A stretch of 37,067 nucleotides of DNA from NCBI GenBank assembly GCA_019057675.1, contig JAHLWX010000009.1, positions 1 to 37,067 of the forward strand. Direction: 5' to 3'. Shown here piece after piece: positions 8,693 to 23,010 of this stretch. The number at the start of each line of letters is the position of its first letter. Position 1 is the first letter of the stretch. This stretch comes from Candidatus Jordarchaeum sp. LHC_1308 (GTDB lineage: Archaea > Asgardarchaeota > Jordiarchaeia > Jordiarchaeales > Freyrarchaeaceae). A program made the position numbers and the translations under genes. Under the pieces are notes generated by a model that searched no databases, had not been told where the DNA came from, and saw nothing but the letters and a program-made list of their open reading frames with translations.

Positions 8693-9526
8693 CTATGATG
8701 GTTTCTCAAGGAGTTTTCTTTTCGAAACGATCTCTCCAGACTTCTTGTGAGGCATTCTTAAGACAGCGTCCCCGGACTTCTCGAGCTCCCTTGCCTCGTC
8801 AGCCAGCCGTGCTACCTGCTTCATGAGCTCGTGGGCTGCTGCAACTATCGGCACGTATTTTTCGAATTCCTGTATCTTGAAGCACCCTTCGACGGTTAGG
8901 TCTGCCACCTTTGATGCGGCTTCATATGCGGCTATGGCCTTGGCCTTAGCGTATGGGTTGCTAAAGCCCATGGCTTCTACGGCCGTCTCCTTGTCCACTA
9001 TGATCCTCGGCAGTTCAGGCGTCGCTCCCTTCTTTATCGATTCTATAACTTTGTCTATCTCTCGGTAGATTACCGTAAATGCGCCCGTTATTGCCAAGAC
9101 CCTTATGATGTCAGCGTTGAAAATGGCCATCTCGACGGGATCCAGAAACTCCCTTCTCGCGCCTATCATAGCGTCAGCGTTAACTATAATGTACCCTTGA
9201 TTCTTTCCCTCAATGTCCTCTCTAGCTTTTTTGCCAGGTGCGTCTGTTATAACTATGGTCGGCACTCCAGCCTTAGCCATGACCTCTCTGACCTTGCTTG
9301 GACCCGGAAGAGCAGCGTTTGGACTCACCACAAGTACGAGATCCGGCTTAAAATCGAGGGCTTTCTCTGCGACTTCCTCTGCCTGCTCCGGGTTAAGCTT
9401 GGCACCTGAGCTAATAACTCTCACGTCTATGTCGCCTCTGTCGGCTCTCTCGTCTAGCAAAAGCTCTAATAGCGGAGCTGAGCCAATGTTCCCCGTCTTA
9501 ACAACACATACTTTGACAACATCCAT
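8693..9526 (-). CDS. mtd: F420-dependent methylenetetrahydromethanopterin dehydrogenase
   Basis: A 277-residue enzyme that reversibly reduces methenyl-H4MPT to methylene-H4MPT with reduced coenzyme F420. Length and sequence follow archaeal Mtd closely: N-terminal VKTGNIGSAPLLELLLDERADR, then SGAKLNPEQ, LVVSPNAALPGP, ITDAPGKK, a segment around YIIVNADAMIGARREFLDP, and FSNPYAKAKAIAAYEAA. The ATG at 9526 is preferred because a GGTGG site (9532-9536) precedes it; the GTG at 9535 would destroy that spacing. It is divergent from ftr, the enzyme two steps earlier in the path, across 136 bp. Mch, which links the two, is not in the window. It is cytoplasmic. Confidence 0.97.
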   Translation of the reverse strand: MDVVKVCVVKTGNIGSAPLLELLLDERADRGDIDVRVISSGAKLNPEQAEEVAEKALDFKPDLVLVVSPNAALPGPSKVREVMAKAGVPTIVITDAPGKKAREDIEGKNQGYIIVNADAMIGARREFLDPVEMAIFNADIIRVLAITGAFTVIYREIDKVIESIKKGATPELPRIIVDKETAVEAMGFSNPYAKAKAIAAYEAASKVADLTVEGCFKIQEFEKYVPIVAAAHELMKQVARLADEARELEKSGDAVLRMPHKKSGEIVSKRKLLEKPS

Positions 9527-9587
9527 GACAACCACCTAAACACTCTTGGAGGGCTTTTAATAAAGTACGAACACTAAAACTTTTCCC

Positions 9588-9595: not shown

Positions 9596-9662
9596 GCCTG
9601 CCCGCGGAGAAGCACAAACCTATTAAAGGATTGACGCACGAGTAAGTAAGGGAGGGTTGATC

Positions 9663-10544
9663 TTGGTAGAGATTGAGGACACATTTGCTGAGGCATTCAA
9701 CCTCTGGGCTGCTAGGATCCTTATAACAACTGCGAACGAGAAGTGGGCTAGAACCGTGGCGTCGGTGGTCACGGGCTACGCCACATCCACCATAGCGTGT
9801 GACGCCGAGGCAGGAATAGACAAGTTCGTCTCAGCGTCAGAAACTCCCGATGGGAGACCCGGAGTAATAGTTATGTTTTTCGCCCCAAAGAAGAACCTTG
9901 ACCACGTGCTCCTGAACAGGATAGGACAGTGCGTGCTCACCTGCCCCACCACAGCGGTATTCGACGCCATGCCGGAGCCAGAAGAGAAACTCGACACCGG
10001 AGCCAAAATGAGGTACTTCGGTGATGGCTTCCAAACGAAGAGTGAGCTGAAAGGGAGAACGATACACGAGATACCAGTCATGGAGGGAGTATTCAAGATA
10101 GAAGCAGAGTTCGGCATAAGGAAGGGAGTAGCTGGCGGAAACTTCATGATACTAGCGGAGAGCTGGGAAAAGGGGTTAGCAGCGGCTGAGGCGGCTGTAG
10201 AGGCCATACAGAAAATAGATAACGTCATACTTCCGTTTCCCGGCGGGATATGTAGAAGCGGAAGCAAAGTGGGCTCACTTAAATACAAGTTCATGAAGGC
10301 AACCACAAACCACAAGCTCTGCCCAACTCTAAAGGGAGTTGTCGGGGACAGCGAAATACCGGAGAACGTCAGCTGTGTTTATGAGATAGTGATAAACGGG
10401 CTCACACTAGATCAAGTAAAACGAGCCATGAGAGATGGAATAAGAGCGGCAATGAAAATGCCAGGCATAGTCAAAATAACGGCGGGTAACTACCAAGGAA
10501 ACCTAGGAAAACACTTCATATACCTAAAAGAGCTTGAACTGTAA
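9663..10544 (+). CDS. ftr: Formylmethanofuran:tetrahydromethanopterin formyltransferase
   Basis: A 293-residue Ftr, which moves the formyl group from formylmethanofuran to H4MPT. The whole length aligns by eye with archaeal Ftr: VEIEDTFAEAFNLWAARILIT, CDAEAGIDKF, ETPDGRPGV, LLNRIGQCVLTCPT, FGDGFQ, GVAGGNF, PFPGGI, SKVGS, and YEIVINGL near the end. Two TTG codons compete as start. TTG 9657 directly abuts the GGAGGG site, whereas TTG 9663 has normal spacing, so 9663 is chosen. A TTTTAAAA box lies about 70 nt upstream. Methanofuran for this reaction would come from the mfn genes 4-6 kb downstream. It is a cytoplasmic enzyme; no truncation is seen. Confidence 0.97.
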   Translation: MVEIEDTFAEAFNLWAARILITTANEKWARTVASVVTGYATSTIACDAEAGIDKFVSASETPDGRPGVIVMFFAPKKNLDHVLLNRIGQCVLTCPTTAVFDAMPEPEEKLDTGAKMRYFGDGFQTKSELKGRTIHEIPVMEGVFKIEAEFGIRKGVAGGNFMILAESWEKGLAAAEAAVEAIQKIDNVILPFPGGICRSGSKVGSLKYKFMKATTNHKLCPTLKGVVGDSEIPENVSCVYEIVINGLTLDQVKRAMRDGIRAAMKMPGIVKITAGNYQGNLGKHFIYLKELEL

Positions 10545-14298: not shown

Positions 14299-15003
14299 TT
14301 GAAGGTGCTGGTTGCTGGTGGATACCACTCGGGCAAGTCAAGCGTTATAAGATCCCTTTCAGGCGGGAAAAGCATACATATCGACAAGCACGGAACGACG
14401 GTAGCTCTTGACTACGGACGAATTGACGTTGAAGGGCTTAAAATACATCTTTTCGGGACGCCGGGCATGAGGCATTTTAGGGTTTTAAGGGAGGTGCTTT
14501 CGAAGGGGGCTGACGGTGTCCTCTTCGTGATCGATAGTGCGGATCCGGGGCGGGACGAGGAGGCAGCCTCTGTAAAGAGGGAAATTGACGAGATTCTGCC
14601 GGATGTCACACGCGTGTACCTTGCAAATAAGCAGGACGTTGACGGGGCCCGCCGCCCAGAGATTATAAGGCAAGTTTTCAGGATTCCAGACGACGTTCCC
14701 GTGATAGGTACCAGCACTGTGACTGGTCTAAACCTTATGCTTGCCCTGAAAACGTTGCTCGCGAAGCTAATAGAAAAAGTGGCTCCACTGCTTAATGTCT
14801 TAGTTAGGTATGACGGAAAAGTTGGAGGGATCAGTCAATTTGCAGAAGCGATGATGTTTAATCTAGCCTCTATAAGAAAGGTGTTTAACTGGCTTGAACT
14901 GAGAGGCTATGTTGAAGTTGACTGGAGAGCAGGCATCTTCTGGCTTGTCCCGCCAATAAAAAGCATTTTAGAAAAGCCTGATGAAATATTGAAGGGAATT
15001 TAA
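14299..15003 (+). CDS. Small Ras/Arf-like GTPase with C-terminal extension
   Basis: A 234-residue protein. The first ~165 residues form a P-loop small GTPase: Walker A GGYHSGKSS at the N-terminus, G3 as FGTPG, and G4 as NKQD. The FGTPG form (instead of DTAGQ) resembles archaeal and bacterial MglA/Arf-like proteins. The last ~70 residues (VLVRYDGKVGGISQFAEAM to GIFWLVPP) are not part of a GTPase fold and look like a winged-helix-sized domain. TTG 14299 is the only reasonable start. The gene sits between two methanofuran genes but is transcribed toward mfnE, overlapping it by 4 bp at the stop codons. Its role is unknown; a link to cofactor synthesis is not implied by sequence alone. Confidence 0.8.
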   Translation: MKVLVAGGYHSGKSSVIRSLSGGKSIHIDKHGTTVALDYGRIDVEGLKIHLFGTPGMRHFRVLREVLSKGADGVLFVIDSADPGRDEEAASVKREIDEILPDVTRVYLANKQDVDGARRPEIIRQVFRIPDDVPVIGTSTVTGLNLMLALKTLLAKLIEKVAPLLNVLVRYDGKVGGISQFAEAMMFNLASIRKVFNWLELRGYVEVDWRAGIFWLVPPIKSILEKPDEILKGI

Positions 15004-20347: not shown

Positions 20348-21355
20348 ATGGAAATTCGGAAAATAATATCACTCGGCCGGTCTTCGCTGGTTGTTTCTTT
20401 GCCAAGAGAGTGGCTTGAATTTCACAAGTTGAAGAAGGGGGATGCTATTTCAATTTCCGTGAGGCGGGACGGCTCACTGGTTTTGTCTCCAGTCTCCCTC
20501 TCGGAAAAAGAGGATAGACATGTGGAGATCACTATTGGTAAAGATGAGCAGTTTGCGTCGCTTTCTAGGAAAATAATAGCGTGCTACTTGAATGGTTATA
20601 AAAGCATTGTGGTCAAATCTGATGGAGTCTTGTCTCCCTCCCAGCAGAAGGGGATACGAAAAGTGGCGAGGATGCTTTATCTCAGGATTATGGAGGCGAC
20701 TTCAAAGTACATGTATCTTGAGGCGACCTTAGATGAGGCTAAGGTTTCACTAAACATGAGTGTTAGGCGCATGCACTCCGTGACGTACTCCATGTGCGAG
20801 AGTGTTGTTAAGGCGCTGGAGGAGGGGACTTTAGATGTTGCTAGGTCGGTTTACACGCTCGATGACGACGTGGATCACTTTTCGTTCTTCCTTATGAGAG
20901 TGCTAAAAAAGGCAACGCAGGATCCACTACTTGCGGAGAAGCTGAACGTCGATGCTGCAGACTGCCTAGATTACCAGACGCTGGTTAACAAGATAGAGCA
21001 CACCGCCGACTGCGCCTCAGAAATAGCTAGGACTTACATACTTCTGCACGGACGCGGGAAAAAAATGGCCACTGATGTGCTAACTCTGCTCGTAGATCTT
21101 GGAAAGCAATCGTTAGGGATATATGACGATGCTGTAAAAGCGTTTTTCTCTGAGGAATTGGGCACAGCGAATTTGATCATAGATGAAAGATGGCCTAGAA
21201 TACAAGAAAAGTCATTTAGAATATCGGAGGAACTGATAAACGAAACGGATCCATACGTGGGATGCGCTATATGTTCCATACAAAAAGCAATGGAAAAAAT
21301 AGGGGAATATGCAGTGGACATAGCGGAAATAGTGATAGACAGAAGTTTTTGCTAG
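20348..21355 (+). CDS. AbrB-domain/PhoU-like regulatory protein
   Basis: A 335-residue protein. Residues 1-50 form a SpoVT/AbrB-type swapped-hairpin DNA-binding domain (IRKIISLGRSSLVVSLPREW, then LKKGDAISISVRRDGSLVL). From about residue 125 there are two PhoU-type helical repeats (NMSVRRMHSVTYSMCESVVKAL, HTADCASEIARTYILL, and a C-terminal KAMEKIGEYAVDIAEI). This fusion is a common archaeal protein family, usually tied to phosphate uptake, but no pst genes are adjacent. GGTGGG at 20338-20343 precedes the ATG, and a TATA-like AATATATTTAAA lies near 20289-20300. It overlaps the convergent MtdB-like gene by 4 bp. Confidence 0.88.
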   Translation: MEIRKIISLGRSSLVVSLPREWLEFHKLKKGDAISISVRRDGSLVLSPVSLSEKEDRHVEITIGKDEQFASLSRKIIACYLNGYKSIVVKSDGVLSPSQQKGIRKVARMLYLRIMEATSKYMYLEATLDEAKVSLNMSVRRMHSVTYSMCESVVKALEEGTLDVARSVYTLDDDVDHFSFFLMRVLKKATQDPLLAEKLNVDAADCLDYQTLVNKIEHTADCASEIARTYILLHGRGKKMATDVLTLLVDLGKQSLGIYDDAVKAFFSEELGTANLIIDERWPRIQEKSFRISEELINETDPYVGCAICSIQKAMEKIGEYAVDIAEIVIDRSFC

Positions 21356-23010
21356 CGTGAAACGGTTAAAGTGAATGATTGCACAAGCTCCACTTTTCTT
21401 CCGAGAATTTCCCTTGCTTTTTCGAGCGCGCAGTTGTAGTCGAAGAAGCCATCACCGCTTGTCCTAGCATCCTGCAGCATTTCCATTTCAACTTTGTACT
21501 TCAGGTCTCCCACAGCCAACGAACCGATGCCATATATGCCTCGTCTTATTTCCTTCATGTCGTCCTTTGCTTCTAATCCCTCAACTCCAGACGGTGGGAC
21601 AGCATTTATGTCCACGAATAACGTGGCTTTCCTTAGCTTTTCAATTATCGTGGCGTCAATAACTCTGACTCCGGCCGCTGCAGCGGTGAAGACCACGTCA
21701 GTGTTCTGCACGATTTTTGCCCTTTCAATCTTTGTCGGAGCAAAAACACCCTTGACATTAACCCCGTATCTCTCCTTAAGGCGGTTTACGACTGAGTCGA
21801 CGTATGCTTGGCTCAGTTTCTCGTATGGCTCAGCTATCACTGTCTCACAGCCAAGCTTGGACAGCAAGACGGCGGCTATCATTCCCACGGGACCTGTTCC
21901 GAACACTACGCATGATTTTCCTGCAAGCTCTCCAAGACCGACTTTCTGAAGACCTTCCTCCGCTTTAGCTATCATGGCTGCTGCGGTAGTGTAAGCGCCT
22001 CTCGGATCCGCCACGATGGATGTCTTGAAGGGCTTAAACATGGTTTTCTTGATGACTTCAGCCACGTCTTCAACCTTGTCGATGTCCTTCCCGCTCACGA
22101 AGAAGCATGTGTACTTGACTCCCTTCGTTCCACGTGAGAATATCGCGTCTTGGACTATGATTTTTGCTTTCTCAGGAGTTACGGCCTCATAAGGCTTGAC
22201 AGTATCGAAGCCAGCATCGTACGCCATGCATATGTCGAATGGGCTTGCAATGTCGTCAGTCGTCAGAAAAAAGAGTATGTATGGAAATTTTCCTACAGCA
22301 CCTTTTACGACGGGCTTAACTTTCACTTTTATGGAGGCGAGGCTACTCCCCTCGGCCTCCTCAATGACATACTCCTTTTTCATGGATGCTATCTCCACTT
22401 TGACGCCAAGAGACTCTAAAAGCTTTATAACTTCGTTGAGGTGCGCCGGGGAACACACGTGAACGCCAATCAGCTCCTTCTTACTGGCTGCAACTTTCTC
22501 GGCGGCATCCACTATACCTTTGACTATCCAAGCAGGCCTGACCTCTCGTTTTATGCGATCAACGCCCTCCTTCAACTCGTCCTTCAGGTAGTCCGCGTAA
22601 GCCACTAAGTAGTCTACGTCTGCTTCACGCCCACTCTTTTTCTTCATCATGTTTAGGTTCTCCAGCGTCTCCTTTAGCTTATCTTTCAGCGTGTCCAGTT
22701 CGTTGAGAATGTAGTTCTTTGCGTTCTCGTCGATATCAACAGTAAAGAATGGAACCTTTAGGGACTCGAAGACCTCTGCAAGCTCGGTTTTTCCTCTTGG
22801 GTCGCGATCACCTAATTCTTCTGTTGCAAAGTCGGGTTTCGTTGTTGAAATAAGTTTCTTCAGGAATTCCTTAAAAGCTGGCGTTGGAACCTTTATCTCT
22901 AGCCCACCATTCCCGGCAATCTCGAGCTCCTTAATGTCTTCATTATACTCCTTCTCGACTACTATCATTGTAAGTTTCCTGCCGGGCTTCTTTAACTCAA
23001 GGGTTTCCAT
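21352..23010 (-). CDS. Two-domain protein: unknown N-terminal domain fused to an MtdB-like methylene-H4MPT dehydrogenase
   Basis: A 552-residue protein. Residues ~243-545 match the NAD(P)-dependent methylene-H4MPT dehydrogenase family (MtdB/MtdA): FPYILFFLTTDDIASPFD, AYDAGFDTVKPYEAVTPE, FSRGTKG, MFKPFKTSIVADPRGAYTTAAA, the Rossmann loop VVFGTGPVGMIAAVLLSKLG at residues 368-387, VFTAAAAGV, VDINAVPPSGVEG and GIYGIGSLAVGDLK. Known MtdB proteins are about 290 residues; here an extra ~240 residues precede the enzyme and are unrecognised, with a charged helical segment at 96-160 and an alpha/beta-looking part at 178-212 (IGVHVCSPAHLNEVIKLL). The start is ATG 23010 with GGGGTGAT 6 nt upstream. Together with the F420-dependent Mtd it gives two routes for the same step. 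Cofactor choice is not proven. Confidence 0.85.
   Translation of the reverse strand: METLELKKPGRKLTMIVVEKEYNEDIKELEIAGNGGLEIKVPTPAFKEFLKKLISTTKPDFATEELGDRDPRGKTELAEVFESLKVPFFTVDIDENAKNYILNELDTLKDKLKETLENLNMMKKKSGREADVDYLVAYADYLKDELKEGVDRIKREVRPAWIVKGIVDAAEKVAASKKELIGVHVCSPAHLNEVIKLLESLGVKVEIASMKKEYVIEEAEGSSLASIKVKVKPVVKGAVGKFPYILFFLTTDDIASPFDICMAYDAGFDTVKPYEAVTPEKAKIIVQDAIFSRGTKGVKYTCFFVSGKDIDKVEDVAEVIKKTMFKPFKTSIVADPRGAYTTAAAMIAKAEEGLQKVGLGELAGKSCVVFGTGPVGMIAAVLLSKLGCETVIAEPYEKLSQAYVDSVVNRLKERYGVNVKGVFAPTKIERAKIVQNTDVVFTAAAAGVRVIDATIIEKLRKATLFVDINAVPPSGVEGLEAKDDMKEIRRGIYGIGSLAVGDLKYKVEMEMLQDARTSGDGFFDYNCALEKAREILGRKVELVQSFTLTVSR

Follow-up and report, generated by a model that had tools for sequence, protein, structure and literature searches.

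Genes at the locus

The window analysed here, 37,067 nucleotides long, is contig C9 in an 84% complete MAG of 1.9 Mb from the Asgard genus Ca. Jordarchaeum. It carries a gene in which a domain of no known family is fused to a one-carbon dehydrogenase of the bacterial MtdA/MtdB type (Table 1). Because the window also encodes an F420-dependent methylene-tetrahydromethanopterin (methylene-H4MPT) dehydrogenase (Mtd), the formyltransferase Ftr, a prismane/CO-dehydrogenase-family protein and the methanofuran enzyme PF04476, it is a Wood-Ljungdahl gene region. A first, sequence-only reading of the window had placed the F420-type Mtd at 8693-9526; this assignment was correct except for the start codon, which extends the gene to 9535. 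Elsewhere in the window (14299-15003), a Ras/Arf-like small GTPase gene sits between the PF04476 methanofuran gene and an AA_kinase-family gene, an order that is conserved within the genus.

Table 1. Features of the fusion gene and of neighbouring genes in the window
Feature	Position	Strand	Evidence or remark
Fusion gene: N-domain of no known family + MtdA/MtdB-type dehydrogenase	21352..23010	-	Intact 552-aa ORF, ATG start
N-domain, residues 1-240, no known family	22291..23010	-	No database match; free paralogues
MtdA/MtdB dehydrogenase domain, residues 245-536	21403..22278	-	Pfam Mpt_N and PDB
GTGPVG nucleotide-binding loop, residues 371-376	21883..21900	-	Alignment with MtdA
Glu394, at the position of MtdA Gly150 (then Arg151)	21829..21831	-	Alignment with MtdA
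Mtd, F420-dependent methylene-H4MPT dehydrogenase	8693..9535	-	PF01993 2.1e-124; PRK00994 413.6 bits vs cut-off 297
Ftr, formylmethanofuran:H4MPT formyltransferase, same pathway	9657..10544	+	FTR, FTR_C
AbrB/PhoU protein, tail-to-tail with the fusion, 4-base overlap	20348..21355	+	Also adjoins second-phylum fusions

The catalytic half of the fusion

From the letters alone, residues 243-545 had been read as MtdB-like, and the structure matches bear this out over residues 245-536. First, Pfam Mpt_N (PF09176) matches residues 257-336 with an E-value of 8.3e-27 and 93.6 bits against a cut-off of 27. Second, the MtdA structures 6tlk, 6tge and 1lu9 align end to end with residues 245-536 (E ~1e-39), and a Rossmann NAD(P) domain with its GxGxxG loop (GTGPVG) continues the MtdA match along the whole C-terminal chain. 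Third, in the pterin half the equivalents of MtdA D18, R52, D94, G97, N221, G227 and K255 are invariant in 52/52 aligned proteins, and those of D24, T100 and E239 vary conservatively across the same 52 proteins. The Pfam search gave no match to the F420-dependent Mtd family (PF01993) in the fusion protein, and npdG (TIGR01915, Fno) was not among its NCBIfam matches. With 552 aa against about 290-310 aa for single-unit MtdA/MtdB, the protein is a variant architecture of this family.

The fusion is carried by the window's genome and by the three others of the genus (one copy being cut off by a contig end), and the same fusion in these three other genomes rules out a chance ORF or an assembly chimaera. 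The protein matches records of Ca. Jordarchaeia and Ca. Jordarchaeum MAGs at 84-90% identity. Both halves are under purifying selection: between congeners, dN is about 0.14-0.17 against a dS of at least 1.46 in the N-domain and 0.05-0.07 against at least 1.15 in the C-domain, synonymous sites being near saturation in both.

The N-terminal domain

Residues 1-240, which the sequence-only reading could relate to nothing familiar, indeed gave nothing above threshold in Pfam, NCBIfam or PDB, whether searched alone or as profiles of 29-31 relatives, so that no known family could be assigned. Nor is this an ordinary domain found in all MtdB relatives, since neither bacterial MtdA nor the stand-alone MtdB-like proteins of archaea have it, and it bears no family name. 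AlphaFold models were obtained for the full fusion (three sequences, mean pLDDT 41.9) and for the N-domain (two sequences, 42.5), a confidence of about 42 that is too low for fold assignment; in these low-confidence models, residues ~95-176 appear mostly helical. Free and fused N-domains have the motifs PDFAxEExG, VDIxENA and VRExW(I/M) in common, and their alignments contain no conserved cysteines and no cofactor motif.

Several other relationships were considered and rejected. A degenerate Mtd reached only P=0.1 in hhalign, glutaredoxin-like PDB matches (E=0.18 and 0.75) covered one short motif, and a resemblance between N- and C-domain (hhalign P=0.0017) was an artefact of 16 columns of overlapping linker. 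An apparent second N-domain gene in G000 was a coiled-coil chance match only. In viral contigs, we found no relatives.

Distribution and phylogeny

The fusion is widespread beyond the window's genome. An MtdB-like match was found in 75 of 228 Asgard genomes and the N-domain in 69 of 224; in G075 (95% complete), the N-domain was found in the fusion only. A second archaeal phylum, that of the MAG labelled Thermoprotei archaeon HyVt-129, has eight full fusions in 7 of the 300 genomes sampled (E <1e-190) and, in the same sample, about 24 stand-alone MtdB-like proteins; no free N-domain was among the matches listed for these 300 genomes.

In the tree, the Jordarchaeum fusions cluster with the Asgard fusion L046, which also adjoins an AbrB/PhoU gene, and with the second-phylum fusions (support 88/93). 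Asgard fusions that are linked to Hdr genes and come with a free N-domain make up a second branch (support 99/93), and L048 and L049, Asgard fusions beside hdrA genes and without a free N-domain, fall outside both. The stand-alone MtdB-like proteins of the second phylum make up a separate branch. On this tree, the fusion may be either old or transferred between phyla. Four loci (L055, L041, L157 and L158) encode N and C in separate genes, a split that is probably secondary given that the C proteins nest within the fusion branch. At L043:8325-11960 (G086), a divergent fusion is followed by two more MtdB-like genes, all of them on long branches.

Gene neighbourhoods

Six of the eight second-phylum loci (L120, L121, L123, L125, L126 and L127) have mtd directly upstream of the fusion in the same orientation, and the two of these mtd genes that were tested match PF01993 at 4e-114 and 4e-116. 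The exceptions are L122, where a different gene lies upstream, and L124, a short contig that lacks mtd. An AbrB/PhoU gene neighbours the fusion in seven of the eight loci; conserved across two phyla, the AbrB/PhoU protein of the window is possibly a regulator of the fusion locus. In Jordarchaeum, mtd and the fusion are 10-12 kb apart, and in the window they are separated by 12 kb and do not share an operon.

In most Asgards, the neighbours of the fusion are Hdr/hydrogenase genes rather than mtd. Most Loki-like Asgards have a free N-domain paralogue of 200-220 aa immediately upstream of the fusion, with hdrA-mvhD, mvhG and mvhA, or hdrD, hdrA and frhB, nearby. At L048, hdrA, mvhG and mvhA precede the fusion in the same orientation, and the fusion is apparently the last gene of that operon. 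Such HdrA/mvh adjacency occurs in many other Asgard loci, but neither in the window nor in most second-phylum loci. At several Loki-like loci with split genes, for example L055, L157 and L158, mtd lies ~3 kb from the N and C genes; at these three, ftr is also a few kb away.

At eight further loci (L040, L053, L145, L146, L147, L148, L150 and L151), a free N-domain protein occurs as a pair with a flavoprotein of the PF07992+PF02852 type, called by Pfam on two loci and by a profile built from those on the remaining six. The extra domain had been proposed to be a regulatory, cofactor-binding or partner-docking module; of these, docking gains support from the free N-domain standing beside the fusion and beside an unrelated FAD/NAD(P) oxidoreductase. 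The N-domain goes with two NAD(P) oxidoreductases that are unrelated to each other and stands close to Hdr, hydrogenase or F420 enzymes, so that the synteny is most simply read as pointing to a module that docks NAD(P) oxidoreductases.

We also noted that, at L040:9494-11701 and L053:8226-10435, a free N-domain protein of ~200 aa stands with a flavoprotein resembling dihydrolipoamide dehydrogenase. No MtdB-like gene lies within the fetched stretch in seven of the eight flavoprotein loci, L151 having both. At L155:7353-10082 and L159:11133-13901, proteins of ~900 aa that each match both the FrhB and the HdrA profile adjoin NADP-type fusions.

Predicted cofactor preference and possible pathway partners

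At the end of the second Rossmann strand, MtdA has Gly-Arg and the second-phylum stand-alone proteins Ser-Arg, most Asgard fusions have Glu-Thr and those of Jordarchaeum Glu-Pro; the second-phylum fusions carry Ser-Leu/Pro-Asn-Pro, which is neither of the Arg nor of the acidic type. In Rossmann folds, an Arg after the second strand usually goes with NADP and an acidic residue there with NAD. Glu394 therefore predicts that the Jordarchaeum fusion would use NAD rather than NADP. Two genomes, G097 (L037) and G110 (L154, L155), have one fusion each with the NAD-type and the NADP-type motif, which suggests a division of labour.

Two clusters, L037:8314-14149 and L038, have the gene order N, fusion, N, N, fusion, and in L037 the motifs of the two fusions predict different cofactors (Glu-Thr versus Ser-Arg). 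At L042:7699-11196, three stand-alone MtdB-like genes lie in tandem, two carrying the NAD-type motif and one the NADP-type; this locus belongs to G101, an Asgard genome that is 99% complete and has no detected Mtd.

The company of an F420-type Mtd and an MtdB-type dehydrogenase, pointed out in the window by the sequence-only reading, recurs in 63 of 75 MtdB-like carriers and in the mtd-fusion gene pairs. In the other 12 carriers, among them G101 (99% complete) and G102 (98%), Mtd was undetected. These two genomes have kept Mch and have stand-alone MtdB-like genes only, so that the enzyme can apparently be the sole methylene-H4MPT dehydrogenase. Carriers without Mtd thereby point to a real methylene-H4MPT dehydrogenase function. 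Mch is found in 31 of 34 carriers; it was not found in G000 but was in G075 and G074, which is consistent with MAG incompleteness.

When carriers were searched for canonical Fno, none of 30 passed the npdG cut-off, and three (G116, G118 and G437) had weak, sub-cut-off Fno-like matches. McrA was not found in 29 of 30 carriers, so that carriers are mostly without mcr. The exception, the fusion-carrying Asgard genome G081, encodes an MCR alpha N-terminal domain (G081:C103:29848-30633, E 4.4e-73).

Since Mtd and the MtdB-type enzyme share their intermediate, having both would permit F420H2 + NAD+ -> F420 + NADH through the H4MPT pool. Hydride exchange of this kind via methylene-H4MPT is made plausible by the absence of canonical Fno from the 30 carriers, and the shuttle between F420H2 and NAD(P)H that had been proposed for the window, for which the mtd-fusion gene pairs also provide context, stays at the level of a plausible route. 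The potential of NAD is about -320 mV. With F420 at -340 mV (PMC8498797), the standard direction would be slightly towards NADH.

Discussion

Taking these observations together, we propose an account that seems to us quite plausible, if just short of probable as a whole. The fusion would serve the archaeal Wood-Ljungdahl pathway as an MtdB-type methylene-tetrahydromethanopterin dehydrogenase that depends on NAD(H), and its N-terminal half would act as a docking module that keeps the dehydrogenase close to the redox enzyme with which electrons or substrate are exchanged. For Jordarchaeum and the second phylum, the docking partner would most likely be the F420-dependent Mtd. Working on the same methenyl/methylene-H4MPT pair, Mtd and the fusion could move hydride between F420H2 and NAD+ with H4MPT as the shuttle, which would link the Wood-Ljungdahl pathway to the NAD pool. 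Lokiarchaeia-like Asgards would have a second fusion lineage and a free N-domain subunit, used with HdrA-hydrogenase or HdrA-FrhB complexes. Against this account, the gene clustering could reflect a shared pathway only; the 12 kb between mtd and the fusion in the window and the weak Fno-like matches of three carriers also speak against it.

A wider claim, which we regard as rather unlikely, is that the N-domain founds an archaeal redox-docking family that attaches different NAD(P) oxidoreductases (MtdB, the flavoprotein resembling dihydrolipoamide dehydrogenase) to F420 or HdrA-hydrogenase partners. Together with Mtd, the fusion would then form a two-enzyme F420H2:NAD transhydrogenase that has methylene-H4MPT as its mobile hydride carrier and replaces Fno.

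The MtdB-type enzyme might instead act in the one-carbon pathway on its own, simply making or using NAD(P)H regardless of Mtd, with the N-domain only stabilising the oligomer or regulating activity. This is a possibility, albeit a doubtful one: genomes without Mtd have retained stand-alone MtdB-like proteins that have no N-domain, and the shared pathway can explain the co-occurrence with Mtd. However, the free N-domain pairs with an unrelated flavoprotein at eight loci and the domain follows redox partners, neither of which a pure stabilisation role would predict. We find it unlikely that the dehydrogenase is a subunit of an HdrA-based bifurcating complex in all carriers, encoded elsewhere in Jordarchaeum, even though many Asgard loci have the fusion and a free N-domain beside hdrA-mvhD/mvhG/mvhA or hdrD/hdrA/frhB and Moorella MetFV-HdrABC-MvhD offers a precedent (PMC9012536). 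The branch of Jordarchaeum and the second phylum (88/93) has no free N-domain and mostly no Hdr neighbours, and most second-phylum loci adjoin mtd instead.

Linkage to mtd and ftr, both H4MPT enzymes, together with Mch in most carriers and the pterin-site residues in common with MtdA, makes it very improbable that the fusion acts on methylene-tetrahydrofolate (H4F) as a FolD substitute and not on H4MPT. Nevertheless, a passage of PMC9012536 has MtdA reacting with H4F or H4MPT, and since the methylotroph enzyme according to that passage also accepts methylene-H4F, H4MPT is the probable rather than the certain substrate of the fusion. Finally, an N-domain that is a divergent TraB/PrgY-fold enzyme, making the fusion bifunctional, is scarcely credible: the motif order is alike by eye and the hhalign P-value of 0.03 against TraB/PrgY/GumN (PF01963) is the lowest of the panel apart from the overlap artefact, but this value is not significant, 22-45 columns only were aligned, and the TraB Pfam family is not among the families listed for 31 N-domain members.

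How electrons pass between F420, NAD(P), ferredoxin and H2 in anaerobic archaea with the H4MPT Wood-Ljungdahl pathway is an open question; the missing Fno in ANME-1 has been pointed to as unexplained (PMC9012536), and the source of F420H2 in Bathyarchaeia has been called unclear (PMC7886697). Dehydrogenases of the MtdB type flagged by this common but unnamed domain, which goes along with mtd or Hdr/hydrogenase genes, make up a defined protein set for this question, one that includes Asgard archaea, whose energy metabolism bears on models of eukaryote origin. The architecture and its gene contexts in two archaeal phyla suggest an unrecognised electron route between F420, NAD and H2. We found no description of the fused domain in the open-access literature, in a search that was not exhaustive. 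The catalytic type is already known; the fused architecture, the free subunit and the gene contexts appear to be undescribed.

With MtdA/MtdB of methylotrophic bacteria (1lu9, 6tge, 6tlk), the fusion shares its whole C-terminal half, the pterin-site residues and the GTGPVG loop. Unlike them, it has a 240-residue N-domain and Glu394 in place of Gly-Arg, and its context is strictly anaerobic and archaeal, beside Mtd or Hdr genes. The stand-alone MtdB-like protein of Bathyarchaeia belongs to the same catalytic family and to the archaeal Wood-Ljungdahl pathway, is closer to the NADH-dependent bacterial homologue and, as far as reported, has no N-domain (PMC7886697). The second-phylum stand-alone proteins differ from the window's fusion by their Ser-Arg (NADP-type) motif and their separate branch. 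Mtd (PF01993), encoded by a neighbouring gene, catalyses the same reaction on the same one-carbon intermediate, with an unrelated fold and cofactor. Fno (F420H2:NADP oxidoreductase) achieves by direct transfer in one enzyme the same net reaction as that proposed for the Mtd and MtdB pair. Finally, Moorella MetFV-HdrABC-MvhD (PMC9012536) resembles the Asgard loci in tying a one-carbon pterin oxidoreductase to HdrA/MvhD genes; MetFV, however, catalyses the methylene-to-methyl step and is of another enzyme family, whereas the fusion comes with a dedicated domain of no known family.
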